Of a stretch of DNA of 39,066 nt, positions 22,534 through 39,066 are shown in pieces. This DNA comes from Borrelia coriaceae (GTDB lineage Bacteria > Spirochaetota > Spirochaetia > Borreliales > Borreliaceae). The notes beneath the pieces were generated by a model that did no database searches, was not told where the DNA came from, and saw nothing but the letters and a program-made list of their open reading frames with translations. Numbering within the stretch: position 1 is the first letter of the stretch; every line of letters begins with the position of its first letter. The position numbers were made by a program, and so were the translations under genes. The DNA lies in NCBI RefSeq assembly GCF_023035295.1, contig NZ_CP075098.1, positions 1 to 39,066 of the forward strand, in the 5' to 3' direction.

Positions 22534-22572
22534 GATTTAATTTGAAATATTTAGCAAGAAGATTATATAAGA

Positions 22573-22721: not shown

Positions 22722-22742
22722 TAGTCAAGCAAGGAGATTCTT

Positions 22743-23351
22743 ATGGGACTAGCCCAACCAATAGTTACGCAACAAATGGTAGTAGCAGAGCTAACTAAAG
22801 CAGGAATTGATAGAGATATTGCTATTGATTTATCTTATAGGTACTATAGGAATGAGTTAACGTATAAGGATATTGAGTATTTAGAAAATACATTTAATCT
22901 TAAACTCGAGAAAGTAGAGTCAAACTTAAAATCCGATGTTAAGGATTTAGATAATAAAATAGACATTAAATTTAATGATCTTAATAATAAAATAGATACT
23001 GTAGAGAATAGTTTTAATGTAAAGGTAGAGAATATAAGGGGTGAATTAAAGTCAGATATTAAGGATTTAGATGATAAGATAGGAAATGTAGAGAATAATC
23101 TAAATGTAAAAATAGAAAATGTAAGGAATGAGTTAAAGTCCGATGTTAAAGATCTTGATAATAAGATAGAGAGTGTAAGGAGTGAGTTAAAATCAGATAT
23201 TGCTTTAGTAAGTAATGAGATTTCACTTGTAAGGAAGGATATAGAAATCAATAAGATGGAGTTTAAGAGTACATTGAGGTTACACAATTGGTTGTTTGGA
23301 ACGATTATTACTATATGTTTAGGAATATTATTAACATTGATATTTAAGTAG
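22743..23351 (+). CDS. bdr: Bdr family protein
   Basis: A 202-aa Borrelia direct repeat protein. The conserved head MGLAQPIVTQQMVVAELTKA and ELTYKDIEYLE block is followed by coiled-coil repeats (about 55-170) built from VKDLDNKID, VENSFNVK and RNELKSD units. The C-terminal anchor WLFGTIITICLGILLTLIF lies at residues 183-201. Bdr proteins are inner-membrane-anchored, polymorphic in repeat number, and found on most Borrelia plasmids and prophages; their function is unsettled. ATG has AAGGAG upstream. It is convergent with a second bdr and shares its 3-prime flank in inverted orientation. Confidence 0.95.
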   Translation: MGLAQPIVTQQMVVAELTKAGIDRDIAIDLSYRYYRNELTYKDIEYLENTFNLKLEKVESNLKSDVKDLDNKIDIKFNDLNNKIDTVENSFNVKVENIRGELKSDIKDLDDKIGNVENNLNVKIENVRNELKSDVKDLDNKIESVRSELKSDIALVSNEISLVRKDIEINKMEFKSTLRLHNWLFGTIITICLGILLTLIFK

Positions 23352-24027
23352 GGTACGAATATATACTAATGGGTGTTATTCTAGAGGGACTGACAAGTTG
23401 TTAGAATAATAGCGAATAGCACAGAGGTGTTTAGTACAGTGGAGAGGGGAGGAAAAATATTTTTTGCAGCGATTTTTATATCTTTTAAAGAGTAGTGACT
23501 ATTTTATTTGTTTTGAATTTAATATATGTTAATAATGATTTTCGAAATCAATTAGTGAATATTATGAAAGTGCTCAAATTATTATTTAATTTGCCTATTC
23601 TTTGTAAAGAATAGGCAAATTAAATAATATTCCTACAACATACATTGCAAAAAAATACACATAAAAATCTTTATTTTTTTACTTCCAAGATCTATGACAG
23701 TAGACATATTGATATTTTCTAAACTAAAATTTATACTAAAATACACTAATTAAAGTTATATATAATCGAATACAAAATTCGTACTAATTTACATTTAAAA
23801 ATGTAGTAAATTTATATATTTCAATCTTAACAAATTATTATGTATAAATATGCAAATTTAAAGTAAATAAAATATCATTTTTTATTTAAAATATTTAAAA
23901 ATCGATGCTGAAAATACTTTCTTATCTCCTCACTGTACTAAACACTTCTGTACTATTAACTGTTATTCTAATCACTTAAAATTATTCTTCCTGGAATAGT
24001 TTTAAGTAGTACATATTAATACCCGAC
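23352..24027. repeat. Inverted bdr 3-prime flanks around a 24-bp perfect hairpin
   Basis: Sequence downstream of the plus-strand bdr (about 23352-23515) is related to the reverse complement of about 23865-24027. Shared blocks include GTGTTTAGTACAGTG and the GCGATTTTTA/TCGATTTTTA region. Between them, 23580-23603 and 23606-23629 are perfect 24-base arms with a 2-base loop. There is no gene. The hairpin may be a bidirectional terminator; the conserved flank may be regulatory. Confidence 0.7.
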
Positions 24028-24561
24028 CTACTTAACCAACAATGATATTAAAGCTAAAAATATACCTAAACTTATAGTAATAATCGTCCCAAACATCCAA
24101 CCATGCAGCTTTAATACACCCTTAAGTTCTGAAATTGATTTGTCTATCTTTATATTTAAATTATTCTCAATAATACTGATTTTGCTATCTAAATCCATTT
24201 TATTAATCTCTATATCTTTCCTTACAAAAGAAATTTCATTACTTATACTCTCTATCTTATTATCTAAGTCCTTTATATCTGATTTTAACTCATTTCTTAC
24301 AGACACAATCTCCGATTTTAAACTACGTTCTGTCATCTCTATTTTTAAATTTAAATTATTTTCTATACCATTAACCTTATCTTCTAATCTTTTTTCTACT
24401 CCGCTTATTTTTTCTTCTAGTTTTTCAAATTTAAAATTAAAATTATTTTCTAAATACTCAATATCTTTGTAAGTAAGTTCATTATGGTAATATCTTTTAA
24501 ATAGATCATTTGCAATAAAATCTTGCATTCCTTTAAACATTGGTAATTTATATATATCCAT
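24028..24561 (-). CDS. bdr: Bdr family protein (divergent)
   Basis: A 177-aa protein. The N-terminus (MDIYKLPMFKGMQDFIANDL) differs from typical Bdr, but LFKRYYHNELTYKDIEYLEN is the Bdr signature block. It is followed by a coiled coil (ELKSDIKDLDNKIES, SFVRKDIEINKMDLDSK) and a C-terminal anchor (WMFGTIITISLGIFLALIS). Coil and anchor are close to those of the convergent bdr, so the two are paralogs in an inverted duplication. It starts 23 bases after the DUF603-like gene, probably in one operon with it. Function of the family is not established. Confidence 0.9.
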   Translation of the reverse strand: MDIYKLPMFKGMQDFIANDLFKRYYHNELTYKDIEYLENNFNFKFEKLEEKISGVEKRLEDKVNGIENNLNLKIEMTERSLKSEIVSVRNELKSDIKDLDNKIESISNEISFVRKDIEINKMDLDSKISIIENNLNIKIDKSISELKGVLKLHGWMFGTIITISLGIFLALISLLVK

Positions 24562-24584
24562 TTCTTAATCTTTAAACTTGAAAT

Positions 24585-24884
24585 TTAAAACGTGATTTTG
24601 AATCTATTATTACTAAGCATGCCAAACTGATTCTTTAAATAACGGATTTGCGCATTACTACTTGTCGCATGAAGTAAGATATTAGTTAGAGTAACTTCAT
24701 GAATAGTAAGTTTATCATTATCCCTAACATATTCAGAATTAGCTTTAACTCCTTTCCATTTATGTCTCATCTTACTTACATTTGCTTTTGAAACACCCAT
24801 TTCTTTTGCAATACTAACATCATTAAGCTTTCCTTCTTTAAAATACACAATATAATCATCAAATGATTTCTTGAATCTACTCAT
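24585..24884 (-). CDS. Short HTH protein, DUF603-like
   Basis: About 99 aa from ATG at 24884; an upstream GTG at 24896 would add four residues. SRFKKSFDDYIVYFKEGKLN then SIAKEMGVSKANVSKMRHKW is a helix-turn-helix and resembles the start of the Borrelia phage DUF603 family, which tends to be nearer 180 aa, so this copy may be truncated. It could bind DNA as a small terminase or regulator. It is distant from terL and paired with bdr. Two GTTAAC boxes lie just upstream, a plausible self-operator. Confidence 0.6.
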   Translation of the reverse strand: MSRFKKSFDDYIVYFKEGKLNDVSIAKEMGVSKANVSKMRHKWKGVKANSEYVRDNDKLTIHEVTLTNILLHATSSNAQIRYLKNQFGMLSNNRFKITF

Positions 24885-24898
24885 ATTCTTTAACACCA

Positions 24899-24916
24899 GT
24901 TAACCAATAAGTTAAC
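24899..24916. promoter_or_regulatory. Paired GTTAAC boxes in divergent promoter region
   Basis: GTTAAC at 24899-24904 and 24911-24916 with a 6-base spacer lies just upstream of the HTH gene and in the gap shared with mlp. A similar pair, AGTTAAC-ttgag-GTTAACT, occurs at 26222-26240. Candidate operator; no binding evidence. Confidence 0.35.
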
Positions 24917-25063
24917 AAAAATTATAATTAACATAAACTCTATAACAAAAAAATAAACTTTGCAAAAACAATGAGTAATCATTAATTATATAGACTAGTT
25001 ATAAAATAATAATCTATAATGACTAATTCAGATTATATATAAAAATTAAAAAAGGAGAATAAT

Positions 25064-26038
25064 ATGAAAATTTTTATTAAAACATTAATATTTTGCAGTA
25101 CATTATTATTGTATTGTTGCAATTCGGATAAAATTAATGGTACGTCTGATAAGACTATACCAATACTACATAAATTACCTAAACAAGGAGAAAACAATCT
25201 ACAGCCTAAAGCTCATGGAAAAGACGAAACAAGACTTAACACTTTAACTGATGATGAAAATCAGAAATTTGACGTTCTTATAAATGCATTTAATAAAATT
25301 ATAGAATTAAAGCGAGTGTCAGATGATGCATCACAAAAAAGTCAAAACTTTTTAAATTGGATAAGATCAACAGAAGTACAAAAACAAAAAGAATTAGCTA
25401 ATGCTTTTACTATAGTCTATGAGGCCTTAAAAGACAAAAAACCCCCACAATTAAAAAATTTAACCATAACTCAACTTATAAATAATGCCTTAACTTGCCC
25501 AAGTATAGATCAATGTAATGATACATATACAAATATTCGACCTCCAGATATACTAATGTTTTTTAGAAATGTCCTAAAAGACACAATTAGTGCAAACAAC
25601 ACCAACGCAAAAAGATTTAAAGCTCTCAAAATAGAATTACTTAACTTAAATCAACATGTACATAGCTTATTAGAAGGGGAGCAATACGAAATAATGCTAA
25701 GAATGCAAATAAAAAATGATAATAACCTAACACAGGCTTTTAATTTCTTAATAAATGCTTTGCCACAGAACAATCGTTATATTGCATGGAGCGCACTAAA
25801 GCTATTGTTTGAATTCAACGATAATGGAATGACAAAGTCCATAGACCTTGAAAAGCTAAAATCTATATTAAACCATATAAATACTGAACTTAACAAATGT
25901 AATAAAAATGAAGCTGGTAAAAATAATCTTGCAACTAGCATAAAAGACTATTTAGTAAAAGTAGACCGAGACAATACACCAGGAATAACTGCATTGAATA
26001 ACTTTGCAACTGAAATATTAAGCGATTGTCAAAAGTAA
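25064..26038 (+). CDS. mlp: Mlp family lipoprotein, extended
   Basis: A 324-aa lipoprotein. The signal peptide ends LLLYCC with lipidation at Cys18 or Cys19. A Mlp-type core follows: LTDDENQKFDVLINAFNKII (about 61-80), then FLNWIRSTEVQKQKELANAF, matching the Mlp F-x-x-F-L-x-W-I..V-Q-K-Q-K-E-L-A-x-A-F motif. Typical Mlp proteins are ~130-220 aa; this one has an extra ~150-residue helical C-terminus (ALPQNNRYIAWSALKLLFEF). Mlp lipoproteins are surface antigens encoded by plasmids and prophages and produced in the mammal. ATG has AAAGGAG seven bases upstream. Confidence 0.85.
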   Translation: MKIFIKTLIFCSTLLLYCCNSDKINGTSDKTIPILHKLPKQGENNLQPKAHGKDETRLNTLTDDENQKFDVLINAFNKIIELKRVSDDASQKSQNFLNWIRSTEVQKQKELANAFTIVYEALKDKKPPQLKNLTITQLINNALTCPSIDQCNDTYTNIRPPDILMFFRNVLKDTISANNTNAKRFKALKIELLNLNQHVHSLLEGEQYEIMLRMQIKNDNNLTQAFNFLINALPQNNRYIAWSALKLLFEFNDNGMTKSIDLEKLKSILNHINTELNKCNKNEAGKNNLATSIKDYLVKVDRDNTPGITALNNFATEILSDCQK

Positions 26039-27218
26039 ACAAAAGATAAAATACACCTCTCATAATTAAGGCTTGCAAGTCAATAAAGATCATTTAAGAG
26101 AGGTGAATTTAAAAAAAGTAATAGTTATAAGAAAAGATAAAGAAAATAAACAGAACATAACACTCAATAGTAAAAGAAAGATAAATTAAACTGATTATAA
26201 AAATAGTAAAAGGAATAAAAAAGTTAACTTGAGGTTAACTGATTGTAAGAAGTTAAAATTTGAAAGTAAAAATGCATCATTACAAAATGTGAATTTATCA
26301 AAAAAGATTATAGAGTATACGTAGAGTAAAGAGTTTAGTATTTGTAAATAAAAAGATAAAGTATATAAAAGATATTAACCAATATATACAAAAAAATACC
26401 TATCCTAACTACAAAAATTACCTTAAAAGCAATATTTATATACAATGATAAAACACCTATATTTGATTTTAATAACAAACATTTGCTAACATTTTTATAA
26501 CTAAATTTATCCTTTTAATGTGTTTAGTTAACTTTTAAAATACACACAAAAAAAACATTTAATTAATAAAGCAAAATACGCAATTAAATGAAGAACCAAC
26601 TCTCCTAAAATCAACCTTAAAGATAAAAAGACTAAGCAAACAAAAACTATTCCTATAAGAGGATACCTTAACAATAAGACTAGTAAAACTATGTACAAAA
26701 AGACTTAAAGAAAAAAATAAGACATACATATTCATTTCAAAAAAGTAAATTTCAATTCAAATAAAATTACCTAAACCTTCACATACAAGTTACATTTCAA
26801 CTTAAACATAATATTTAAAGAAATACTTATTTCCTAAGAAATTACTAGTTTTATTATACTCAATAACATCACCTCTTAAATGAACAGAATCACTATTAAG
26901 AATTGGTAAAAGCAAATGTTTTAAGTTTTATAGCAAAGTTGATTTTAGTGTGCAAAGAAAAGCTTGAAAATGTATGGTGAAAAAGACATTTTAGTAGGTT
27001 TAACGATTGATAGATAGTTTGTGGGTAGACACACAAGGCGAAGTAGAGTGAATTGAGATTAAACGTAGTTTACGACCTATTCTGTTTATTTTACTTATGT
27101 TATTTTTCTTATCCTTAACCTGATTTTGATATGTAACTGTTCAACTTTCAAACATTTTTTAACTATATAAACTAAGATGTTATAATTTAACTTAATTAAT
27201 TTTTGTCATATTTGTATG
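26039..27218. other. Long non-coding AT-rich region
   Basis: No convincing gene in ~1.2 kb. It holds an 8-bp inverted repeat CACCTCTC...GAGAGGTG (26054-26061 and 26098-26105), possibly the mlp terminator, and the IR AGTTAAC-ttgag-GTTAACT (26222-26240). The minus strand around 26820-27080 has short open stretches in one frame broken by stops, perhaps a decayed gene I cannot identify. It is a candidate for the replication origin, given the PF57 gene that follows. Confidence 0.4.
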
Positions 27219-27348
27219 CATTTGATACTCCTTATTATTTTGTTAAAATCTAAAAAAATATTTTTTATTAAAGGATAGTTTACTTTCCTTTAATAATTAC
27301 GCTATCATTAGTTATGATGATAAAACAAATAATAAGGAGTATCAAATG
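27219..27348. promoter_or_regulatory. Nested inverted repeats at the PF57 start
   Basis: 27219-27244 is the reverse complement of 27324-27348 apart from one extra base. The right arm contains the PF57 ribosome site AAGGAG and ends in its ATG. Inside lies a hairpin with 11-bp arms (TTATTAAAGGA at 27265-27275, TCCTTTAATAA at 27286-27296) and a 10-base loop. The outer repeat could hide the start site in RNA or be an origin element. Confidence 0.6.
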
Positions 27349-28449
27349 AGGAGCATAAAAAAGTTTACAAACAAACATCAATACAAGTGAATAGTTTTAA
27401 TATCTACACTAAACTACATAAATTCAAAGCTTAAACAATACACTCAAAACAATATACTTTACTACTTTAATAACAATATGAAAAAAAATGGCCAAGAGCC
27501 TGTTAAACTTAAAACTTTACAAAGCTATCTTTATAAATTAAAAAAAGTGCTAGGTGTCACAATAAACTATTATAGACATTTGGGTGTTAACATGGGCACT
27601 GAAATTCATTATGAACTCAAATACTCTAAACAAGAATGTTACCGCATAATCAATAAACACTTTAGAGAAAAGAAAGAGGAAAAACACAAAAACCGTGTTA
27701 ATACATATCTTGAAAAGACTTGTAATCAAAATAGCAGTGTAAAAAAAGAGGAGTGTTTACATAATACTTATAATAAAAAAGAAGAAGATAAAAACAAACA
27801 ATCCATAGAAAGACTACAAATAGAAAAATATGCATAAAAAATGCAAATTTAAACCAAATGTATTCTTTTCTATCTTAAATTTAAAATTAAGCAAAAATGA
27901 TACAATTAAAGTATGTAAAATGGTTAAGAGAATGGAAAATTCCATTAAGAGTAGCCAGGAAAAGGCCAATACTATTAAGCCAACAATGAGTCACATTAAA
28001 AGTAAAAAAAGGAATTAAATACAATACTTAATGAAACAAAGAGTAGCCTTGAAAATGAAGGTTATGATGGTAAACAGCTGGAAATACAAATACAAAAAGT
28101 ATATGAACAATATAAAAACAAACCACATTTCATTATAGAAAATAATAAGTACAATGACTTGAAAGATATAATAGAAAAAATTAAAAAAACAGTTAAATAT
28201 ATCAAAACAAACACGCAAGAAGACAAAAAAGAAATTAGGAACAACATATTTAGTATACTTATCGAACAATTAAGAAATAAAATGAGCATTGAAATTTTAA
28301 TACCTATACTGAAAGATTACTTAGATAAACAAAATAAATTAGAATACAGCAAGGTACTTAGTAATCATTACTACTATGAACTTTTAAAGTCAATGGAAGA
28401 TAATAAAGATTATGTAAAAGTAGGAGAATTTGAAAAAATTACAATTTAA
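27346..28449 (+). pseudogene. PF57 plasmid replication protein, broken
   Basis: PF57 (Borrelia ORF-A family) is needed for autonomous replication of many Borrelia plasmids. Fragments in order: residues 1-14 from ATG 27346; in-frame TGA at 27388; then IVLISTLNYINSKLKQYTQN through NYYRHLGVNMGTE to IEKYA; frame change near 27830; KCKFKPNVFFSILNLKL; frame change back near 28003-28010 in an A-run; then KVYEQYKNKPHFIIENNKYN to the end at 28449. All parts of the family appear in order, so only three point lesions separate it from an intact gene. The indels lie at A-rich runs and could be sequencing errors; the TGA is less easily explained so. Confidence 0.8.
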
Positions 28450-28458
28450 GGACTAGTC

Positions 28459-29022
28459 ATGAAGAGTGTGTTGGCACGACTTAAAGAGAAAAAACTAGAA
28501 ATTAAGGATAAAGTAAAAAGTAAGAATCTTTTCACAAAAATAGAAAAAATTGATAACAAAACAATATACCATACAAAGATAATGAATGATTTATATACAT
28601 TTGGAGTTCATAGAAGACAAAAGAATAAATTTTTTATTGCATTCAGAGGTTTATTTAATCAAGAAAAGATAGGCACACTTAATTTATTTTCTATAAAGGG
28701 GGATGACAAATTTCTGGATATTTTTTATGGATATAGGAAACCTCTACAAAATATCATAACAAGATATGAAGAAAATGGTGTCATGAAAGCATATACCTTT
28801 TCAAGGGTGTATTACATAGAATTTAGATTTAAAAAAGGTAGTGTATTTTGTTATATTAAAGGAATGTCTCGTTTGATTAGGAAGGAAAAATTAGAAACAC
28901 AATATAGTCAATTTTTACTTGAACTGATAATCAATTTAGAAAAAGAAGTATATAAATTCTACAATAAGAATTTACTAGATGGAGGTCTTATAAACAAATG
29001 GATAAAAAGAACCCTAAGATAA
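28459..29022 (+). CDS. PF50 plasmid maintenance protein (DUF226)
   Basis: A 187-aa member of Borrelia family PF50. Typical features are MKSVLARLKEKK at the start, FGVHRRQKNKFFIAFRGLFN (about 49-68), and SRVYYIEFRFKKGSVFCYIKG (about 113-133). It is encoded between PF57 and PF32, as is standard for these partition clusters. Role in plasmid maintenance is known only by conservation. ATG with AAGGA nine bases upstream and ten bases after PF57; its end overlaps PF32 by 25 bases. Confidence 0.9.
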   Translation: MKSVLARLKEKKLEIKDKVKSKNLFTKIEKIDNKTIYHTKIMNDLYTFGVHRRQKNKFFIAFRGLFNQEKIGTLNLFSIKGDDKFLDIFYGYRKPLQNIITRYEENGVMKAYTFSRVYYIEFRFKKGSVFCYIKGMSRLIRKEKLETQYSQFLLELIINLEKEVYKFYNKNLLDGGLINKWIKRTLR

Positions 29023-29828
29023 TCACTTTTGCCTCGATTAAAGGAGGTGTTGGAAAAAGTACAAGCTCAATTCTATTTGCAACTTTACTGGCCCGAAAAT
29101 ATACAGTACTGTTAATTGATATGGATACACAAGCATCGGTTACTAGTTATTTTTTTAACGAGATAAAAGAAAAAAATATAAACTTAATGGAAAAAAACGT
29201 ATGCGAAGTTTTAAAAGGAAATTTAGAGCTTGCTAGTGCAATTTTTAATATTGAAGGCAGTTTAGATTTACTTCCTAGCTATTTAACTTTACACAGTTTA
29301 AATGAAGATTTTTATTGTGCAAATAGGCATAAATCTATTGATTTAAAGCTAAAGGTAGAATTAAGAAGGTTAAAAATAAAGTACGATTATATAGTGATTG
29401 ATACTAATCCAAGTTTAGATTTTACATTAAAATGTTCTTTAAATTCTACTGATTATATTATAGTTCCAATGACAGCTGAGAAATGGACTCTTGAAAGTTA
29501 TGAACTTTTAGAATTTTTCATTAAAAAGTTGGACAGGTTAATACCAATTTTCTTTATTATAACAAGATTTAAAAAAAATAATACCCATAAGAAATTATTG
29601 AAAATAATTCAAGAAAAGGACACCTTTTTAGGTGTTGTATCTGAAAGAGAAAATCTAAATAAAAGAATAGCAAGTAACAGTGATTTTGATTTAAAGTCTG
29701 ATTATATCATAGAATATAATCAAATATTAAGTAATTTATTATACCACATAAATCTTAGTGACGATACGATGGAGATTCCTAGTATAAGTTGTCCAGCGCT
29801 GGAGAACTATAAAAATCCAATAGAATAA
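28998..29828 (+). CDS. parA: PF32 ParA-type partition ATPase
   Basis: A 276-aa protein. Deviant Walker A IKGGVGKST at 14-22 with signature Lys15 and Lys20; DMDTQAS at 41-47; Walker B-like YIVIDTNPS at 131-139. This is the ParA/MinD family. PF32 drives plasmid segregation and its sequence type determines plasmid compatibility in Borrelia. ATG lies within the end of PF50 with GGAGG upstream. The cluster order PF57-PF50-PF32-PF49 is intact. Confidence 0.95.
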   Translation: MDKKNPKIITFASIKGGVGKSTSSILFATLLARKYTVLLIDMDTQASVTSYFFNEIKEKNINLMEKNVCEVLKGNLELASAIFNIEGSLDLLPSYLTLHSLNEDFYCANRHKSIDLKLKVELRRLKIKYDYIVIDTNPSLDFTLKCSLNSTDYIIVPMTAEKWTLESYELLEFFIKKLDRLIPIFFIITRFKKNNTHKKLLKIIQEKDTFLGVVSERENLNKRIASNSDFDLKSDYIIEYNQILSNLLYHINLSDDTMEIPSISCPALENYKNPIE

Positions 29829-29837
29829 GGGGATTTT

Positions 29838-30422
29838 ATGGATAAAAAAAGTAATGATGAAATAATAATTAATGCAAGAAATTTAAACAATGATAAAAAT
29901 TCTATTTTGTTGATTAATAATAATATTAACATAAGTGATGATCAAAAGAGATTTGCACTTTTAAAAAGTAAGTTAAAGGATAATATAAAAGATGATATTT
30001 ATAATAAAATAGAGGCCATGCATATTTTAAGAGAAATAAAAGAAAAAGAGTATTATAAGTTAGATGGTTATAAAAGCTTTTCTCAGTTTATAAAAGACTA
30101 TAAGTTAGCCAAATCTCAGGCCTATTCTTATTTAAGAATAGCTAGTGCTATTCAAGATGGAATTTTAAAAGAAGAATATTTAATTGAAAATGGATTTAGG
30201 CAGTCTTTATCATTTTTGATGAAGAAAGAAAGTAAAAATTTGGAAAAATCAAAAACAAATCTAGTAAAACCATTAAAGCTTCAACTTAAGAGTCAGGAGA
30301 GTTATGCTTTTTATAAGAAAAATGTCAACTTTACAAGTTTCTTAATGGATGAACTTTTCAAAGACAAAAAGGATTTGCTAGAAGAGTTTATGAAAAAATT
30401 TAGGGGTTTAAAAGGTGAATAG
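29838..30422 (+). CDS. PF49 plasmid partition protein
   Basis: A 194-aa member of Borrelia family PF49, the gene after PF32 in plasmid partition clusters and the probable ParB-like partner. The core EAMHILREIKEKEYYKLDGY then FSQFIKDYKLAKSQAYSYLR (about 56-100) is the family signature and includes a helix-turn-helix-like segment. C-terminal FTSFLMDELFKDKKDLLEEF also fits. ATG with AAGGGG nine bases upstream, nine bases after PF32. Confidence 0.9.
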   Translation: MDKKSNDEIIINARNLNNDKNSILLINNNINISDDQKRFALLKSKLKDNIKDDIYNKIEAMHILREIKEKEYYKLDGYKSFSQFIKDYKLAKSQAYSYLRIASAIQDGILKEEYLIENGFRQSLSFLMKKESKNLEKSKTNLVKPLKLQLKSQESYAFYKKNVNFTSFLMDELFKDKKDLLEEFMKKFRGLKGE

Positions 30423-30434
30423 TAAGGAGTATTT

Positions 30435-30968
30435 ATGGGTAATTTAGCGTATAAAGTATATAGAACAGAAGATTTAAAGAAGGAATTTTTAAATAAAGGA
30501 TTTACTGAAGAAGCAGTGGATTTTATTTTGCTTCATAATGACAATTTTAGTTTTGAAATTTTGAAAGAAAAAATAAATTCATTAGAACAACAAATCATGA
30601 ATGTAGAGAATAACTTAAAAAAGGATATTGAATTTACTAAGATAGAATTTAGACGAGACATATCTAATTTGGATATCAAAATAGATAATGTTGAAAAAAA
30701 TTTACAGAAAGACATATCTAATTTAGATGTCAAAATAGATAATGTTGAAAAAAATTTACAGAAGGACATATCTAATTTAGAAAAGAACTTACTTAAAGAA
30801 ATGGAAAGTAACAATGCAATATTGCGAGAAGAAATGAAAAATAGTCATTCAATACTGTTGGAAAAGCTTGGTGTAGGGAATAGGATGTTAACTATTATTA
30901 CGGCAATAGGAATACCAATAATTATATCTATTATTATGTCTCTAATAAGTAAATTCTTTGTAGGGTAA
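30435..30968 (+). CDS. bdr: Bdr family protein (partition-linked)
   Basis: A 177-aa protein. The N-terminal domain VYRTEDLKKEFLNKGFTEEA is of the second Bdr type (no ELTYKDIEYLE). The coil holds direct repeats of the form ISNLD.KIDNVEKNLQKD, the KID repeat that defines the family; at the DNA level a 54-base unit is repeated around 30655-30775. C-terminal anchor: MLTIITAIGIPIIISIIMSL. It is placed directly after PF49, as is usual in cp32-like and linear plasmids. ATG has AAGGAG upstream. Role unsettled. Confidence 0.9.
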   Translation: MGNLAYKVYRTEDLKKEFLNKGFTEEAVDFILLHNDNFSFEILKEKINSLEQQIMNVENNLKKDIEFTKIEFRRDISNLDIKIDNVEKNLQKDISNLDVKIDNVEKNLQKDISNLEKNLLKEMESNNAILREEMKNSHSILLEKLGVGNRMLTIITAIGIPIIISIIMSLISKFFVG

Positions 30969-31613
30969 AAAAGTTATTGTGAAAAAGGATTGATTTTATT
31001 TAGGATTTGTTGTATTTTAATTATTGTTAGTAGTGCTGTCATTTTAGTACTATCTTATTATTTTGTTCAATTTAGACAGACTTAAAGTTTATAATAAGTT
31101 ACTATTTTCATGTTTCATGATATTGTTAAAAATTTTGTAAAATTTAACAAATCTAGTTTTTAATATGATTATATTTATATATAAAACAAATAATAAGGAA
31201 ATTAACAGTACAAAATACAAAACTAGGTTGTATAAAGCAAATATGGAACCAAAATCAAATAAAAAAAGAGAAGAAGTACAAGATATAGTAATAAATAATC
31301 AATGTTGTTAAAATAAAGTTTTATAGTCCTCTAGTAGTGGCTATAGTGAGTCATTTGATATACCAATATATACAGGAGAATTAATCTATATCAGGAGTAA
31401 AGAATCAGAATACACTTCCATGACTTGTAAGTTAATATATAAAGAATACACTTCCATGACTTGTAAGTTAATATATAATATGTTGCAAATGATATGCTCT
31501 TGTAGTTTGTCGTTCAATTGAAAGTGAGGTTGATACTGATGCATGTTCTTTAGAATATATTCAGAAATGCCATAAAAAACAAGTTAACAGTATAAGTAGC
31601 GCATCTATGGGGG
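30969..31613 (+). pseudogene. Decayed sequence, part of a broken lipoprotein-like gene
   Basis: About 645 bases without an intact gene. 31182-31199 repeats an 18-base word found just upstream of PF57 (27321-27338). Short in-frame pieces follow: a 17-codon frame from ATG 31243 (MEPKSNKKREEVQD...), then SSGYSESFDIPIYTGELIYI near 31336, then CRSIESEVDTDACSLEYIQ near 31510. They end by frame changes and may be the 5-prime part of the fragment at 31614. Parent gene not recognised. Confidence 0.4.
31407..31478 (+). repeat. 36-bp perfect tandem duplication
   Basis: 31407-31442 and 31443-31478 are identical 36-base units. The unit is divisible by three and lies in frame in one of the decayed pieces (EYTSMTCKLIYK twice). 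Confidence 0.9.
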
Positions 31614-31931
31614 TTGTCAAGTAAAGTAAAACTGTTAATATTAAAGAAACTTAATACTAAAAGAATTGCTATTAAAGAGGCAGTTAAAACTAAGGCGGTA
31701 GCATTTAAAGCTAAGTTATTTCAACAAAATAGTACTTTAGGGGCTAGTGGAGGTACCCAAGATAATCATGCAGAACAGGCTATAGATGGAACTACTAATG
31801 GTAGCAGTGGAATGCATGGAACAAAAGAACTTGCTGAATTACATTCAGCAGTTAATACTTTAATTGGTACTGCTAAAGAGATATTAGGAGGGATAATCGC
31901 ACCTGCTAAGGAAGTGAGCCCTGTTAACTAA
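31614..31931 (+). pseudogene. C-terminal fragment of a Borrelia surface protein gene
   Basis: A 105-codon frame with only a TTG at its head, no ribosome site, and a different frame (SISSASMGVVK, then stop) running into it, which indicates a frameshifted gene. The basic start (KLLILKKLNTKRIAIKEAVK) and glycine/serine-rich middle lead to ELAELHSAVNTLIGTAKEIL. No signal peptide or lipobox is present. The helical alanine-rich end is like that of plasmid-borne Borrelia lipoproteins, but I cannot name the family. The next gene is vlp, 23 bases on. Confidence 0.45.
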
Positions 31932-31954
31932 GGGAAAAATGGTGCACGTAATAT

Positions 31955-33001
31955 ATGGAAATAAATATTAAAAATATTAGAGTAAAAAGTATTTGTACAA
32001 CATTATTTATCTCTTTATTCCTTTCTTGTAATAATGGGATAGAAGAACTTGAAAAACAAAGGGATTCTATACTATCTATATCTAATTTAAGACAAGGATT
32101 CTTAGATATTTTTATTTCTTTTTCTGATATGTTTACTGATGCATTTGGTATTAAGGCTGAGACACCAAAAAGTGAGGTAGGAAAGTATTTTACTAATATT
32201 GAAGAGACAATGAAAACAACGAAAGAAAAGTTAAAAGACGTTTTAGCAAAGAATGGTGATTATCCAAAGGTGAAAGAAGAGGTTGAGAAATTTATTGAAA
32301 AATTGACAAAAATTGAAGAGGGTGCTACAGAAGCTGCTAAAGGAGCTATAACGGGTGATGCGATAGGAAATGCTGTTAAAGATCAGGCTGCTTTAGCAGC
32401 AGATCCTGCAAGTATAAATTTGCTTGTTAAAGGAATGAAATCTATTGTTAAAGGAGTAGTCTTAAAAGAAGGTAAAGCGGAGGCTAATTATACTAAAGAT
32501 AGTGATAAAACAGATATTGGTAAATTATTTAGTTCAAAGAAGGATACTGATGGAACGGATGCCCAAGCTGCTTCAGCTAGTGCATCAATTGGAGTTGTGA
32601 GTGGTGCTGATATTCTGCAAGCTATTGCTGAATCTGATGAATCTGCTAGTGATCAGGTTGGAATTGAGAAGGCAAAGAATGCAGCTGAGATTGCTGCAGC
32701 TAAGGTTGAACAGAGTAAATCCCTTAATACGGTAAAGAAAGATGCAGTGATAGCAGCAGGAATAGCACTAAAAGCTATGGCTAAGGGTGGTAAATTTACT
32801 ATTAAGGACAGTGGTGCTGATAATGCTGCATCCACAATAAATGGAGCGGTGGCAAGTGCAGTAAACAAGACATTAAGTACTCTTATAATTGCAATAAGAA
32901 ATACTGTTGATAGTGGTTTGAAATCAATAAATGAAGCATTAGCGACAGTTAAACGAGAAGATATGTCAGCAGACACAAATGAATCTGGCGCTGCTAAGTA
33001 A
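31955..33001 (+). CDS. vlp: Variable large protein (Vlp), probably an archival copy
   Basis: A 348-aa Vlp lipoprotein, the major variable surface antigen class of relapsing-fever Borrelia. Lipobox LFLSC with Cys25. Family blocks: FSDMFTDAFGIKAETPKSEV, GKYFTNIEETM, SINLLVKGMKSIVKGVV, SGADILQAIAESDES, GIEKAKNAAEIAAAK, KKDAVIAAGIALKAMAKGGK and TLSTLIIAIRNTVDSGLKSI. The reading frame is intact, but there is no promoter in the 23-base gap to the upstream fragment and the ribosome site is poor, so it is probably a silent donor for antigenic variation. That is inference. A strong terminator follows. Confidence 0.9.
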   Translation: MEINIKNIRVKSICTTLFISLFLSCNNGIEELEKQRDSILSISNLRQGFLDIFISFSDMFTDAFGIKAETPKSEVGKYFTNIEETMKTTKEKLKDVLAKNGDYPKVKEEVEKFIEKLTKIEEGATEAAKGAITGDAIGNAVKDQAALAADPASINLLVKGMKSIVKGVVLKEGKAEANYTKDSDKTDIGKLFSSKKDTDGTDAQAASASASIGVVSGADILQAIAESDESASDQVGIEKAKNAAEIAAAKVEQSKSLNTVKKDAVIAAGIALKAMAKGGKFTIKDSGADNAASTINGAVASAVNKTLSTLIIAIRNTVDSGLKSINEALATVKREDMSADTNESGAAK

Positions 33002-33053
33002 GGAAATAAATAAAATTTAGGAAAAGATAAGCAAACAAAATAATAAAGTCATT

Positions 33054-33095
33054 AAAGGGAAACACTCTTTTGTATGAGAGTCGTTTCCCTTTTTG
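33054..33095 (+). terminator. Intrinsic terminator after vlp
   Basis: AAAGGGAAAC pairs with GTTTCCCTTT (10 bp), then ACTCT with AGAGT after a bulge, followed by a T-run. Strong rho-independent terminator ~50 bases after the vlp stop. Confidence 0.9.
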
Positions 33096-33150
33096 TGTAT
33101 TTAACTAGCCTTTTTGGTTAAAATAAAGGGGAAAAGGAGACATGTAATAT

Positions 33151-33407
33151 ATGAAAATAAATATTAAAAATATTAGGATAAAAAGTATTTGTGCAACATT
33201 ATTTATCTTTCTATTCCTTTTTTGTAATAATGGAATAGGAGAACTTGAGAAGGGAAATCACTTCTTATCCTCACTTGCTAATTTAGGGAATGACTTCTTA
33301 AATATGTTTTTATTTCTTTTTTTGATATGTTTACTGTAGCTTTGGTCATTAAAGTTTGTACTAAACAAAGCTATGTAGGAAATTGTTTTATTGCTAAAGC
33401 TTTTTAA
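33151..33407 (+). pseudogene. vlp: Truncated vlp fragment
   Basis: The start MKINIKNIRIKSICATLFIF and FCNNGIGELEKG closely match the upstream vlp, and AAGGAG lies upstream. After ~55 residues the frame shifts near 33315; the continuing frame DMFTVALVIKVCTKQSYVGN aligns with vlp DMFTDAFGIKAETPKSEVGK and stops at 33405-33407. Only the first ~85 residues of a vlp remain. It is an N-terminal relic, perhaps from a recombination event. Confidence 0.8.
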
Positions 33408-33578
33408 TTAGATATAGATGATTTTATAAAATTTACTTTAATTAGTAAGAGCGTACCTAGATATGTTGTTGAGAATTTATTTAATGTTAAGATAAACGGT
33501 GTATATTTGATATTAGTTATTTTATTTAGATATTAAAATTTGATATTTGAGTAATGTAGGTAATCTAGGAGAGGAAAT

Positions 33579-34415
33579 ATGAAGAAAAGTATCGTATCAA
33601 TATATATGTTAACACTAATGTGTTTATTCTCATGTGATATTAATTTTCTTAATGAATTATTAGGCAAATCAAGAGAAAAATTTTTAGAAGAAACTGATAA
33701 TGTAAAAGACTTAAATTCTAAAGAAGAAAATCAAGAGGGTAAGGAGAATCAGGTAGATGTTTCAAAGGTTAAAAGGGATGTAGTGGTAAATAAAGACTTT
33801 ATGGAAAAAAGTATTGAATTATCCCAAATTAAATTAACAGAGGATCAAGAATCTTATCTTATTAGTAAAGATGCTGAGGCTAATGCTATGCAAAATAGAA
33901 TTGATTTTAAATTACTAAAGATAAATGAAAAGTATGATGAGTTGGATAAATCGTTGTCAGAACTTAAGAAAATGGAAGCTTTTGTTATAAAAGCTGAGTC
34001 TGATTTTGATGAGGCAAGAAGAGGTATTTCTGGAAACGAGCATGTAACGAAAGCTTTGCCTTATTTGTATGAAGCAATTAAGACAGTTAAAGTTAGTAGA
34101 CATATTGCAGAAGTAGGATATAATGGACAACTTAATGCATTAGAACATGTAAAAGCTGCTGCTGAGTATGCAAAGAGTCTTATTAAGTCTGCTTTAGGTG
34201 AATCAGCACAGGCAAGGGCAAGCGGTTATTATTATGTGCAGCGTATGATAGATAATATTTCAAAGGCAGAAACCAATTTGAGTAAAGCAAAAAATATGTT
34301 TGGTGAAATAGAGTTAAAATTGGATACTCTTAGAAATGATATGAAACAAGCAAAGAACGATTTTACTGTTTTAGAGAAGGCATACCAATTATTATTGGAA
34401 GTTAATAAGAGATAA
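33579..34415 (+). CDS. Surface lipoprotein, helical, family not identified
   Basis: A 278-aa lipoprotein. Lipobox LFSC with Cys19 after MKKSIVSIYMLTLMCLFSC. An acidic linker (about 35-70) precedes a helical domain (about 80-275), for example LKINEKYDELDKSLSELKKM and AETNLSKAKNMFGEIELKLD. GNEHVTKALPYLYEAIKTVK and GYYYVQRMIDNISK stand out as aromatic patches. Size and helical fold recall relapsing-fever binding lipoproteins such as BBK32/Fbp-like proteins, which I cannot confirm. It shows faint similarity to the lipoprotein at 37484. ATG is preceded by GAGAGGAAAT. Terminators follow. Confidence 0.75.
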   Translation: MKKSIVSIYMLTLMCLFSCDINFLNELLGKSREKFLEETDNVKDLNSKEENQEGKENQVDVSKVKRDVVVNKDFMEKSIELSQIKLTEDQESYLISKDAEANAMQNRIDFKLLKINEKYDELDKSLSELKKMEAFVIKAESDFDEARRGISGNEHVTKALPYLYEAIKTVKVSRHIAEVGYNGQLNALEHVKAAAEYAKSLIKSALGESAQARASGYYYVQRMIDNISKAETNLSKAKNMFGEIELKLDTLRNDMKQAKNDFTVLEKAYQLLLEVNKR

Positions 34416-34418
34416 TAT

Positions 34419-34454
34419 ATAATTGAATTATTAATCAAATAATAATTCAATTAT
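34419..34454 (+). terminator. Hairpin after lipoprotein gene
   Basis: Perfect 15-bp arms (34419-34433 and 34440-34454) around a 6-base loop, beginning four bases after the stop codon. A/T-rich. Confidence 0.7.
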
Positions 34455-34481
34455 TTGTTGAGGATATAATATTTGAGTGCG

Positions 34482-34514
34482 ATAGGGTCTAATGTTATTA
34501 GGTCCTATTTTTTA
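34482..34514 (+). terminator. Second terminator
   Basis: ATAGGGTCTAAT pairs with ATTAGGTCCTAT (two G-U pairs) around a GTT loop, followed by six T. Likely intrinsic terminator. Confidence 0.7.
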
Positions 34515-34522
34515 TATGTGTG

Positions 34523-34594
34523 CCTTTAAAATTTGGTTACGTCGTTATAATAGTGTAGAAATAAATGATATAATCAAATTTTAAAGGTGTTTTT
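34523..34594 (+). terminator. Third inverted repeat with T-run
   Basis: 34523-34539 and 34571-34587 are 17-base arms with one mismatch, a ~31-base loop, and a run of seven T after. It could be a third terminator or a small regulatory element. Confidence 0.45.
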
Positions 34595-35010
34595 TTATTG
34601 TAAGGATCTTTATTATATGGTTACGGGTTTTAAATTAAATGAATTTATAGGAAGATGGAATGATATGTCATCAATTTGAATGATGATAACTACACTAGGG
34701 TAACAACTTTTGCTAATATTATTGAATATACTCTTTTCTGCTTATAAACATGCTATTAATTAAAATATAGATAGGTTATATAAAAGTTAATAATCGGTTA
34801 AGAAACTACAATGTTAATTTCTTGCTAGAAAATTTGAGCAGAATTATTAATCAATAATGATAAAATTTTATCTTTCTTTCAAAGAGTCATAGAGGGGATA
34901 TGTCTACTTAAGAGTAAGGATGAAGAAAAAATAAATAATTTTGATGTAAGTAATTTGTATTTTATACTAAATGGTATATATTTTAATTTAATAATGATTC
35001 TTAATTCAAA
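34595..35010. other. Non-coding region before PFam54 gene
   Basis: AT-rich, with short broken frames on the plus strand and nothing I can identify. It probably holds the promoter of the gene starting at 35024. Confidence 0.4.
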
Positions 35011-35023
35011 AAGGAGAGTATTT

Positions 35024-35950
35024 ATGAGAAAAAAATTATTTATTTTTACATTATTAATTGTAGGTTTAGTGTCATGTGATGTAAATTCTAAATTATTGGT
35101 AGAAGGAGCAATCAGAGATGTTGCAGGAGATGTTGGAAGTGGTGTTCAAAGAGATGAAGGCAGCAAAAGTATTATTAATAATGGTGATTTTTCAGAAGAG
35201 GTTGTAAGTAGTGGGGTTATAAATAGTGTTCAAAGTGATGAAGCAGTAAAACCAAAAGAAGATGAGATTAATAAAGTTCCTGTTGCAGAGGTAATAAAGG
35301 TAGATGTTGCAATCAAAGATGAAAAAGAGGAATTAATATCTGCTATTAAAAAAGATGTTAATAATGTTAAGGCATTAGTAAGTGCAGATAAGGCAGAAGT
35401 TGAAGATATAGATCAGTATGGTATGAAGGAAAAAGTATTTAAAGCAGTACTAAATAAGTCTAATCAGAAGACATTAGATGACAATTCTAATAAAGAGTTA
35501 AGAAGATTATTTTATTCATCTTTATTGTACAATAAAGAAAGAATAAAGGAATTTGCAGGAATTCTGAAAAAAATAGAATCAGATGTAAAAAATCGAGGAA
35601 CATGGATTATAGATATAATGAATTCTGTAATAGGCCAGCTTCAATTTAACTTTGAGAGTGTAATTAATAAGTTAGAAAAGAATAAAGACAAGCTAGATAA
35701 ATTAAGTCTTGATGATTTAAGAGAGGTTAAATCAAAACTTGAAGAGATTCAATTACAAAGATTAACTTGGAGAAAAAGTGTAGATGCTATTATAACAGAT
35801 TATAAAGGGAAGAAAGATGGTATTGATTCTGATAGTGAAAAATTGATAAGTCATATTAGTGAAGGATATAAAAATCTTATTACAGTTAAGATACCGAGAA
35901 TTCAAGAGGTTTCTGATAAGATTATATTTTTAATAGATAAAGTTAAGTAA
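35024..35950 (+). CDS. PFam54 (CRASP-1/BBA68-like) lipoprotein
   Basis: 308 aa from ATG 35024, chosen because AAGGAG lies eight bases upstream and the signal peptide MRKKLFIFTLLIVGLVSC follows (Cys18). The longer frame from 34955 has no such site. The C-terminal ~170 residues resemble the PFam54 fold: ELRRLFYSSLLYNKERIKEF, AGILKKIESDVKNR, IGQLQFNFESVINKLEKN, LDDLREVKSKLEEIQLQR. In Lyme Borrelia this family includes complement-regulator-binding CspA; the ligand of this copy is unknown. The N-terminal ~120 residues are a low-complexity acidic spacer. A strong hairpin terminator follows. Confidence 0.7.
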   Translation: MRKKLFIFTLLIVGLVSCDVNSKLLVEGAIRDVAGDVGSGVQRDEGSKSIINNGDFSEEVVSSGVINSVQSDEAVKPKEDEINKVPVAEVIKVDVAIKDEKEELISAIKKDVNNVKALVSADKAEVEDIDQYGMKEKVFKAVLNKSNQKTLDDNSNKELRRLFYSSLLYNKERIKEFAGILKKIESDVKNRGTWIIDIMNSVIGQLQFNFESVINKLEKNKDKLDKLSLDDLREVKSKLEEIQLQRLTWRKSVDAIITDYKGKKDGIDSDSEKLISHISEGYKNLITVKIPRIQEVSDKIIFLIDKVK

Positions 35951-35971
35951 TTTTAAATTTTATTAAAATAA

Positions 35972-36006
35972 AGGAATCTAGGTCATATTATATGACCTAG
36001 ATTCCT
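35972..36006 (+). terminator. Intrinsic terminator, perfect 17-base arms
   Basis: 35972-35988 and 35990-36006 are exact reverse complements with a single central base, outer arm AGGAATCTAGGTCAT, followed by ATTTG. It follows the PFam54 gene by 22 bases and is symmetric, so it could work both ways. Confidence 0.85.
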
Positions 36007-36040
36007 ATTTGTTATTTAAAGTAAATAGGTTTTTTTATAA

Positions 36041-37303
36041 AAAATAGAGTTTAATATAATCTTAAACACAAATGATATTTTTAGTATTGATTTTGAACAG
36101 CTTAAGACTGCACCTCCTTATTATTTTTTTGTAAAAAGAAATGTAGAGAATAAAGATATTTATAATAAGGGGATTTCACTTGAAGATATTTTTATCACTT
36201 ATAACAGCGGATTAAAACTTGTAAGAGAAAATGTGACACTTGATTTTACTAAAGATGCGCTTTTAGCTAAACTGCATGACTTTGCTTATCTTGATGAACA
36301 AACTGCTAGAGATAAGTATAAGCTAACTCAAGATTCTAGAAATTGGAAGTTACCAATTGTTCAACAATTTTTAAAATCTGTAAATATCAATGCAAAGTAT
36401 GTTAAAAGCATAGTTTATAAGCCTTTTGATGTTAGATATACTTACTATACTGATAGAAAAAAAGGTATTGTAGAAAGGTCGGGTTATTCAATTAATATCC
36501 CAATATCTCTTGTGGTTGAAATTGTTTATGGTACTTTTCATTAATAAAACTTATAAAACTTTCTTTAAAATTTGATTTCATTGAACTTTCTAATAAAGAC
36601 TTTTGTTCCTCTATAATAAATAATGGGAATATATAACAAGTCTCTCCACTTACTTGATTCTCCTTCAAACATCGTCCCGTTGCAGTAAAACCACCTGAAA
36701 TAACAAAATTATGTTTAAATACTTCTGTTGCTAGACATCTTGTTGATAACAATGCTACATTATCATCAATGCTTAACATATGGATATATTTGTGCAATAT
36801 TAAGTTCAAATATCTATAGAACAAAATTCAATGAGTTTTTAAGAATTGACTTTGCAAAAATCATTTTTGTAGATTCAGTGAACCTATTTGAAAAACTTAG
36901 TAAATTAGGAATGAATCTAATTAATGCACAATTATTTAGAAATTTAATTGATTTAGATAAGAGTGTTGGGGTTCATATATCAAAAGTCAATGCAAAACGT
37001 ATTGTAGAAAAAGTTGAATACTTGAAAGACAAAAAAGAACTTATTTATAGTGACAATTGTAAATTTATAAATGTGCCTTTTAAGGTATATGAATTTAGTA
37101 TTGGTACTTATAGAGTGCTTAAAAATTATCTTAGATTTAGAAAGGGAAGAGAATTAAGTAATGATGAAATTGAACACCTTGAGAATGTGATTAGGGTAAT
37201 TAATTATACGTTTGATATTCAAGAACAGATTGACTTGATAATTTGTAATTTACAAGAATTTAGTAGTAATGATGACTTATCAAGTTTGTCATTGGTAAGT
37301 TAG
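36041..37303 (+). pseudogene. Type IIG restriction-modification C-terminal remnant with internal inversion
   Basis: Plus strand 36041-36499 reads FSIDFEQLKTAPPYYFFVKR ... IVYKPFDVRYTYYTDRKKGI, typical of the specificity half of fused type IIG methyltransferase-endonucleases (BBE02/BBQ67-like). Plus strand 36782-37303 reads GYICAILSSNIYRTKFNEF, DFAKIIFVDSVNLFEKLSKL to LSSLSLVS. The missing piece (HMLSIDDNVALLSTRCLATE ... FINEKYHKQFQPQEIL) is present on the minus strand of 36501-36781. Flipping that segment restores one frame of ~420 codons. The nuclease and methyltransferase N-terminus is absent; the frame is closed by a stop at 36038. Non-functional as read. Confidence 0.85.
36495..36787. repeat. 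6-bp inverted repeats bounding the flipped segment
   Basis: ATATCC at 36495-36500 and GGATAT at 36782-36787 are the exact junctions. Re-inversion joins AAT-ATC-CAT-ATG on the left and TTG-GGA-TAT-ATT on the right, both in frame. Confidence 0.85.
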
Positions 37304-37483
37304 AAACTTATCTAAGGACAGGCTAAAGTAAAAATATTATGATGTCATAGTGAAATTTTATATTAATTGAATGAATTTATTTGAAATTTAAAAAAGAGGT
37401 GTATACTTATCAGTAATTCTTGTATTTCAATATAGATACTTAATAATGAAATAATTTTTTTTGATGTTCTAGTTGAGGGGATC

Positions 37484-38782
37484 ATGAATAAAAATGTTTT
37501 GGCAGTATGTGTTTTGACACTATTATGTTTTCTATCATGTCATATGGCTTTACTTGATAGATTGATCGGAGTAGTAAGTGAAAGATTTTCAGAAGAAGAA
37601 TATTATTTAGGTTTATTAAAAGAAAGTAAAGAGGGCGAAGAAGATCAATCGGATGTTATTATAAATGCTGGAAAAAAGTTTAAAGTACTAGGTGTTGTAG
37701 GTATTCCCAAAAAAGGTATGACACAGCCATTACAGTCTGTATCTCAAGTTGGTGAAGCATTAAATCAAAAACAACAAAAGGTAGAATCTGTTGTGACTAA
37801 GGTTATGGGATCTGATATTTCAAATCCAGCAGAGGCTGCTTTGGAAAGTGTAAAAAATTTATCTGAAAATAATATTTCTACAACAACGGTTAGTCAGTCA
37901 TCTTTGGAGAAGCAACTTTTGGCGCAACAAACTGAAGATAGTAGTAAAAATATTTTCAATAAAGGTGAAGAAGAGAAGCGATCTGATAAAAGAGTGATAG
38001 ATGGAGCACCACAGTCTGATCAACCTCAACAAGTTGCTGAGCCTCAATCTGTTGAATTGGTGCAAGAGGTGGAATATTCTGCTAAAGAGACTGAGTCAGA
38101 AAAAATTAAGAATGAAATAGATTCTGCTTTAACACAGATTGGTTCATTTAGTGATAGTTTTAACAAAAAGTTGTCAGAACTTGAGGGGTATAAATCTAAG
38201 ATTTCTGATGCAAAGTCTAGGGTGAAAACTTTGAATCATCATCAGGAAGCAAAGACAGTTTTAGATGAAATTGTGGTTCAAAGATTTAAGAAGGATGGGA
38301 TAGTGAATTTAGAGCAATTTGTAGAGCGATTAAGTGAGAATATTATGAAGAATATAAGTGTTGCAAGTGCTTTATATAAGGAACAACTTGATAGATTAGT
38401 AAAGGCAAAGTCGGAAGCTGAGAGTGCAAAGCAAAATTCCATTGATTCTTCTTCTGATATTATGTCAAAGGCAAAAGATAGATTGGACAGTGCGATTGAA
38501 GAAATAATATCTGGCAACAAAAGTGCGAGTGCAAGGTCTGCTCGTCAAAAGGTAGTGAAAGCGTATGGTGTTTTCGAAGAGTTCATTTGGCGTGTAAAAA
38601 AAATTGATAGTATTGTTAGAGCTGGTTCATATACTAATCTAGCTACTCAATGGAAATATGGTGCTCTATACTTGGAGAAATTTGCTCAGAAAGGTATTAC
38701 TTATGATAAGCTAAAGGAAGATACTGAGCGAGAGATGGAGAGATTTGTAGATAACAATTTTGACTATTTTCTAGGTAATTAA
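37484..38782 (+). CDS. Subtelomeric surface lipoprotein, family not identified
   Basis: A 432-aa lipoprotein. Signal MNKNVLAVCVLTLLCFLSC with Cys19. Residues about 60-205 are a low-complexity Q/E/S-rich spacer (QSVSQVGEALNQKQQKVESV, SDQPQQVAEPQSVELVQEVE). Residues about 205-430 are helical: FNKKLSELEGYKSKISDAKS, IVQRFKKDGIVNLEQFVERL, RQKVVKAYGVFEEFIWRVKK. The length and disordered-then-helical layout resemble fibronectin- or complement-binding Borrelia lipoproteins, but I cannot assign it. ATG with GAGGGG upstream. It is the last gene before the right telomere and has its own terminator. Confidence 0.75.
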   Translation: MNKNVLAVCVLTLLCFLSCHMALLDRLIGVVSERFSEEEYYLGLLKESKEGEEDQSDVIINAGKKFKVLGVVGIPKKGMTQPLQSVSQVGEALNQKQQKVESVVTKVMGSDISNPAEAALESVKNLSENNISTTTVSQSSLEKQLLAQQTEDSSKNIFNKGEEEKRSDKRVIDGAPQSDQPQQVAEPQSVELVQEVEYSAKETESEKIKNEIDSALTQIGSFSDSFNKKLSELEGYKSKISDAKSRVKTLNHHQEAKTVLDEIVVQRFKKDGIVNLEQFVERLSENIMKNISVASALYKEQLDRLVKAKSEAESAKQNSIDSSSDIMSKAKDRLDSAIEEIISGNKSASARSARQKVVKAYGVFEEFIWRVKKIDSIVRAGSYTNLATQWKYGALYLEKFAQKGITYDKLKEDTEREMERFVDNNFDYFLGN

Positions 38783-38830
38783 AGAAAGATGTTTATGTAA
38801 GTATTTATTCTATATTATTGATGAAGGGGG

Positions 38831-38854
38831 GAGACATTCTTAATAGAATGTCTC
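38831..38854 (+). terminator. Intrinsic terminator of the last gene
   Basis: GAGACATTCT-taat-AGAATGTCTC, perfect 10-bp stem, followed by TTTT. It lies 48 bases after the stop. Confidence 0.9.
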
Positions 38855-39036
38855 TTTTAAGTTTTATTTAAATTAGGTTATGTAATTTGTAAGTTACAAA
38901 TATCGGGATTATTTATATTAGGAAAATCAGTTTTGTTTTAATTTTATTTCTGTTAGTTAGTTGAGGGAAATATGATTTTGCTTGGTATATATGAGGGAAT
39001 TTTATTTGAGGAAACTTTGTTCAATATTATTAGCCA

Positions 39037-39066
39037 AACACTTATGTACTAAAAACAAATTATATA
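39037..39066. other. Right hairpin telomere (probable)
   Basis: Read inward from the end, the sequence begins TATATAATTTG and reaches TTAGTACA at the same distance (22 bases) as the left end, and includes a TATAAT box. This matches the layout of Borrelia telomeres. Between 38855 and here only a 26-codon frame (ATG 38971) is present, with no support as a gene. Confidence 0.8.

Follow-up and report, generated by a model that had tools for sequence, protein, structure and literature searches.

Short in-place inversions have been described on the linear plasmid lp17 of Borrelia burgdorferi, one of 259 bp in N40 and one of 101 bp in the d20 pseudogene of JD1, in passages of PMC3303823 that also present a 5.6-kb inversion in cp32-5 of N40 and call it non-homologous. 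Template switching between non-identical inverted repeats was described in yeast, with arm matching and spacer inversion as its outcome (a part of PMC8604942), and the invertible hsdS loci of type I RM systems, as they appear in excerpts of PMC4948785, have inverted DNA in the specificity region. The inverted repeats flanking human-chimpanzee microinversions range from 3 to 75 nt, and the authors doubt template switching for many of them (passages of PMC8755829).

The window, i.e. the whole stretch of DNA that was analysed, is contig C23 with a length of 39,066 bp, from a genome of 24 contigs and 1,787,333 bp. Its plasmid relatives belong to Borrelia and Borreliella; plasmid records covering most of positions 20000-39066 have 75-85% identity to it, and the best piece reaches at least 95% in 33 of 267 records. 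The features around the inversion are as follows, C1 being the chromosome and C16 another contig of the same genome.

34955-35950, plus strand: PFam54-family lipoprotein gene upstream of the gene fragment; related sequence lies upstream of the C1 and C16 fragments too
36055-36497, plus strand: 5' part of a type ISP (IIG-like) RM gene fragment, Type_ISP_C positions 1-99; its frame runs to a stop at 36542-36544
36495-36500, plus strand: left arm ATATCC, which is ATAAAC in the uninverted paralogues; the two bases that differ both match the right arm
36501-36781, minus strand: segment of 281 bp inverted in place, with its coding sense on the minus strand
36782-36787, plus strand: right arm GGATAT, the same as in the uninverted paralogues
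36782-37303, plus strand: 3' part of the gene fragment, Type_ISP_C positions 194-330, up to the stop codon
37304-39066, plus strand: right end of the contig, free of substitutions against the chromosome right end except for a 4-base hairpin-loop flip

The event is a member of the already known class of short in-place inversions among Borrelia plasmid rearrangements, as far as the passages of PMC3303823 describe that class. Like the lp17 inversions it lies on a linear plasmid, measures 0.1-0.3 kb and is exactly in place, and one of the lp17 cases is likewise in a pseudogene. The resemblance to lp17 d20 extends to arms that end up matched and to an unflipped form that is ancestral, whereas the 259-bp inversion has inverted repeats of ~130 bp, of which the window has none. 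The cp32-5 inversion is also in place, without long repeats and with zero net loss or gain at its junctions, but it is twenty times longer, lies on a circular prophage plasmid and left its arms unchanged. For this particular locus we found no published report among titles and abstract openings, and it may still have been reported. We consider it probable that the locus carries a single mutation scar, assumed to be fixed in the lineage, in which a template switch produced a conservative in-place inversion of 281 bp within a truncated type ISP fragment. We infer that it is not a programmed switch, and a function is unlikely.

The preliminary description of this DNA had seen two plus-strand fragments of one gene around a middle of minus-strand sense, and both the domain search and the paralogues bear this out. 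When the three pieces were searched apart against Pfam, a single family was found, Type_ISP_C (PF18135), and the matches are collinear once the middle is read on the minus strand: plus 36086-36544 matches positions 1-99, minus 36492-36824 positions 131-195 (E 0.0059, below the curated cut-off), and plus 36728-37303 positions 194-330. Uninverted paralogues that are 96-100% identical occur in the same genome at the chromosome right end (C1:917386-918926) and on C16 (3740-5093). In both, the stretch matching window 36495-36782 has the opposite orientation and the flanks are unmoved, so that relative to these close relatives only the segment is reversed; the copies on C21 and C24 have the unflipped order as well.

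The limits given earlier for the flip, 36501-36781, proved exact to the base. Against C1, the left flank match ends at 36497, the inverted match spans 36495-36782 and the right flank starts at 36782, with 284 bases between the flanks in the flipped and the unflipped form alike. These bases (36498-36781, i.e. the three arm bases 36498-36500 plus the 281-bp segment) have a reverse-complement identity of 284/284 to C1 and 283/284 to C16, and on the C1 figure the in-place inversion is far beyond chance. The comparison with the paralogues shows the uninverted state to be ancestral and the segment to have been inverted where it lay, without any net change in length from flank to flank. One continuous frame across both joins had also been proposed, and the two plus-strand fragments do share a frame, the stop at 36542-36544 being brought in only by the flipped segment.

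Assignment to one type IIG RM gene held in part: a type ISP (IIG-like) domain was found, but the gene is not whole, as homology to full-length relatives starts near 36055-36062, corresponding to about codon 650 of the 1045-codon C21 paralogue. Of the full-length type ISP genes, those of C21 (1045 aa) and C18 (1048 aa) have open frames. The C24 gene (locus L014, 2383-5522) is frameshifted into two overlapping frames of 325 and 768 aa, with its open relative on C21. In the C21 protein, Pfam places N6_Mtase at 320-510 and Type_ISP_C at 695-1015 and does not show a nuclease domain; the nuclease part of type ISP and IIG enzymes is usually located at the N-terminus. Since the copies on C1, C16 and C23 start near codon 650, they are without the methylase. 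The C16 copy has a frameshift of its own, and C12 and C13 hold only the 3' half. NCBIfam gave no name for the C21 protein, for the C1 fragment or for a 432-aa protein at 37484-38782 of the window. Judged from these alignments, the host gene is an already dead 3' fragment and a whole enzyme is possible from neither orientation.

The short repeat at the ends of the segment did not exist beforehand, as both close paralogues show. The left end reads AATAAACATATG in C1 and C16, and the right end reads TTGGGATATATTTG in C1 and TTGGGATATATATTG in C16, so the unflipped copies carry ATAAAC/GGATAT and the perfect ATATCC/GGATAT repeat is therefore a product of the event. Arm pairing was 4/6 (3 contiguous bp) before and is 6/6 after, with equal length, a pattern suggestive of copying from the right arm to the left one during inversion of the 281-bp spacer. 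Inverted repeats of 6 bp with a loop of 100-400 bases are at chance level, with 7110 pairs in the 39,066-bp window. The overlaps of 3 and 1 bp at the two junctions are chance-like for the composition (per-junction P 0.079 for 3 or more and 0.50 for 1 or more). Both new junctions are present once in the genome, and the left one was found in one of 18 genomes of the genus, namely the window's own.

The orientation of the segment was surveyed in 36 Borreliaceae genomes, sixteen of which have a match. Among the 18 loci that span the segment (a count that includes the window and is based on coverage of residues 96-191 in the C1 frame), seventeen from ten genomes are uninverted and only the window is flipped, each locus being read from a single assembly. 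Plasmid records agree: 139 match the C1 frame, and the 60 listed all do so on one strand over at least 81% of the frame; with the window as DNA query, the middle matches on the strand opposite to the flanks, i.e. in the unflipped form, in all 30 listed plasmid records that have the middle. Serine recombinases (PF00239) were found at no place in the genome, as opposed to ten of 14 control genomes, and tyrosine recombinases (PF00589) gave six matches, all on C2-C6 and none on C23. The frames with PF00589 matches are open over 246-249 aa, and their contigs measure 29-48 kb. No recombinase site of the size used by tyrosine recombinases flanks the segment, and an enzyme acting in trans is possible.

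A DNA-inversion switch of the specificity region, one of the three readings offered in the preliminary description, was rejected on these results. The methylase part is absent, and the flip gives a stop (at 36542) without an alternative recognition domain, the product being a 3' fragment either way. The repeat is derived from the event and chance-sized, so that in place of inverted recombinase sites in both forms there are 3 contiguous bp (4/6) before and 6 bp after; no recombinase family matches on the contig and no cognate invertase lies in or near the element; and none of the 17 other spanning loci is flipped. Like the hsdS loci of PMC4948785, the window has inverted DNA in a specificity region, but unlike those loci, as the excerpts present them, it is without a recombinase on the contig, long repeats, an alternative recognition domain and a whole gene. 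An active element, in which the segment still flips via ATATCC/GGATAT and turns its product on and off, is extremely improbable in our estimation. A perfect 6-bp inverted repeat does flank the segment now, and yeast spacers between perfect arms can flip repeatedly (in the part of PMC8604942 on such arms), but the repeat was made by the event and has 7110 equals in size within the window, PF00239 is absent from the genome with PF00589 proteins confined to C2-C6, and the 3' fragment gives a whole enzyme in neither orientation, with no second flipped locus among the 18.

The right end of the window has a history of its own. Positions 36782-39066 are 99.6% identical to C1:918225-920509 up to the last base, a comparison beside which PMC5310021, on B. 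burgdorferi, is cited for the portion that bears on it, and plasmid and chromosome have probably exchanged ends recently. Substitutions against the chromosome right end number five in 36782-37303, whereas 37304-39066 has none apart from the 4-base loop flip. At 36883, 36970 and 37173 the window agrees with C16 and differs from C1, and only beyond 37173 is it free of substitutions against C1. Inversion as a part of the end exchange was considered and dropped, as these three positions side with C16; the boundary of the exchange lies to the right of the inversion, and the two events therefore look separate. The loop flip belongs to a hairpin at 38833-38852, GACATTCT-TAAT-AGAATGTC, whose loop is ATTA in the chromosomal copy, so that this molecule carries one more in-place inversion, a very small one.

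With three near-identical copies of the locus in the genome, an artefact of assembly or sequencing has to be weighed, and we regard it as very unlikely. Reads could be misplaced given a right end 99.6% identical to the chromosome end and a left flank 98% identical to C16, but reads misplaced from uninverted copies would not by themselves yield an inversion together with two changed arm bases. The bases at 36110, 36424, 36993 and 37054 are unlike those of every copy compared there and mark this copy as its own, and like inversions occur in independently finished Borrelia genomes (passages of PMC3303823).

We searched for further in-place inversions in 906,410 bp of the same genome (all but 414 bases of contigs C2-C24, together with 20 kb from each of two chromosome ends) and found the window event to be the only one of 25-6000 bp. 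The strict scan is blind to inversions between repeats longer than 60 bp, and a laxer rerun gave the same single event. A scan for small inversions over 853,007 aligned columns found two 4-base cases: the hairpin-loop flip of 38841-38844, and one that lacks a flanking repeat and could be a chance match. Exact inversions had been called rare in gene decay, which is true of these 906 kb of genome but not of other Borrelia plasmids, where short ones recur.

Among 18 B. burgdorferi plasmid records (eight lp17, five lp36-type, four lp38 and one lp54, with B31 lp36, lp38 and lp54 ending short of their last bases), 27 pairwise detections reduced to four inversions, namely lp17 d20, the lp17 259-bp case, JD1 lp36 and B331 lp38. 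Altogether, three inversions in the passages of PMC3303823 were re-derived (lp17 d20, lp17 259-bp and cp32-5) and three more were met, on lp36, on lp38 and in B. miyamotoi. The in-place inversions of JD1 lp36 (18457-18587, ~122 bp) and B331 lp38 (23759-29205, ~5.45 kb) have no long flanking repeats, and no report of either was found in the 'inversion' passages of PMC3303823, PMC5310021, PMC9158201 and PMC12958805. The sixth, of ~121 bp, lies in a type ISP pseudogene on lp97 of B. miyamotoi LB-2001 (5316-5435) and is common to HT-31 lp70. It comes from six relapsing-fever plasmid records (three each of B. turicatae and B. miyamotoi, two of these only to base 50,000), was judged against B. turicatae lp48 and lp47, B. 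miyamotoi 1999 lp20 and C21 and C24 of the present genome, and was kept out of the junction comparison because it is too diverged. The 259-bp case of lp17 was set aside as ordinary homologous recombination because it lies between inverted repeats of ~130 bp.

Five inversions without long repeats thus have readable junctions. At the window junction AAC has become the reverse complement of GGA (two bases differ), in B331 lp38 GAA has become that of ACT (three differ), and in JD1 lp36 GATA that of TTAT (three changed positions). In lp17 d20 the arms went from TAACA/TATTA to TAACA/TGTTA, TGTTA being the reverse complement of TAACA with one base different, while the cp32-5 junction is blunt with no change. 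Length neutrality was observed in 5/5 and a 3-4 nt copy fits 4/5, with internal indels of 1-2 nt set aside for d20 (100 vs 98-99 bases) and an internal difference of 11 nt for lp38 (5456 vs 5445). The unflipped form came first in the window (17 loci), in d20 (orientation shared by B. finlandensis and B. lanei; the segment had no match in B. americana) and in lp36 (B331, Gr39 and the diverged B31 lp38 paralogue). The direction for lp38 rests on B31 and N40 against B331 without an outgroup, and that for cp32-5 on the passages of PMC3303823 and the cp32 records compared.

Template switching, the second of the readings in the preliminary description, is the best supported of the three since the event conserved length and brought one quasi-inverted arm into agreement with the other. 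On this view the type ISP fragment, already truncated, lay close to the right plasmid end when a strand growing in replication or repair may have left its template for the complementary one where the arms ATAAAC/GGATAT pair. It would then have read the segment backwards and returned on the same axis, leaving homogenised arms and an inverted spacer. The yeast cases in PMC8604942 match in the respects its relevant part describes, as originally imperfect arms end up perfectly matched around a spacer that has turned round in place; imperfect arms beforehand are present in C1 and C16, and in the window the arms are homogenised, the spacer inverted and the length unchanged. The dimensions are far outside the yeast range: yeast spacers are 2-5 bp and arms >9 bp in that part of PMC8604942, as opposed to a 281-bp spacer and 6-bp arms here. 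Three further points speak against a template switch. For a loop of 281 bp, the prior pairing (3 contiguous bp, 4/6) is weak. The junction overlaps, 3 and 1 bp, do not exceed chance expectation. The inversions of 5.4 kb and 5.6 kb, equally length-neutral, would be long for a double switch in one fork, and the 5.6-kb one has no arm change.

An alternative, which we hold to be unlikely, is conservative breakage and rejoining with a short stagger, in which an enzyme holding both ends (e.g. DNA gyrase or topoisomerase IV, by a subunit swap between two cleavage complexes) would re-ligate the segment inverted, and mismatched overhangs would segregate at replication to leave one arm sequence on both sides. 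All five readable inversions are length-neutral at their junctions, and four of the five have 1-3 bases of one arm altered to match the other, which a copied tract of 3-4 nt fits; such a process would work equally well for spacers from 0.1 to 5.6 kb. That gyrase interface swapping may give rise to micro-inversions was suggested in the passage of PMC11164529 on this subject. Against this, the cp32-5 inversion has no changed arm bases, and the same four arm patterns are predicted by template switching. A fixed stagger of 3-4 nt for all events was dropped, as the cp32-5 inversion has no copied tract. Breaking and rejoining would fit the long inversions better than template switching does, and the five events do not separate the two. 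For the window, template switching is preferred because it accounts directly for the copied arm and does not require an enzyme to act at two positions separated by 281 bp.

It is unlikely, though conceivable, that Borreliaceae carry out conservative, sequence-independent plasmid inversions of about 0.1 to 5.6 kb with zero net junction change and often a 3-4 nt tract copied end-to-end. If this were true, an enzyme holding both ends (e.g. gyrase swapping interfaces with a short stagger) would be indicated in preference to slippage or end joining, and the non-homologous reshuffling of Borrelia plasmids would become easier to explain. Taken alone, the window inversion is a fossil in a dead gene fragment. 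Together with the other cases, it defines a signature at base resolution (in place, length-neutral, arms matched) that could be used to test, over hundreds of finished Borrelia plasmids, by what mechanism non-homologous rearrangement occurs. It also serves as a warning that a precise inversion beside a short inverted repeat need not be a phase switch, as the repeat here was made by the inversion.

Finally, several minor observations were made on the window. An inverted repeat at 35953-36025, with 36-base arms that are 81% complementary and 1 base between them, separates the PFam54 lipoprotein gene from the gene fragment and is probably a terminator; sequence resembling it is present on C1, C16, C9 and C14. 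Rfam gave no match in 35000-39066 at the gathering threshold, nothing in a phage collection matched window 36100-36300, and the junction 20-mer is absent from the viral contigs searched. The minus strand of 6458-18650 holds a late gene block of phage type, with the following members.

15516-16718, minus strand: terminase large subunit
14469-15503, minus strand: portal
6458-9583, minus strand: tape measure
17073-18650, minus strand: two tail-fibre-like proteins (weak)
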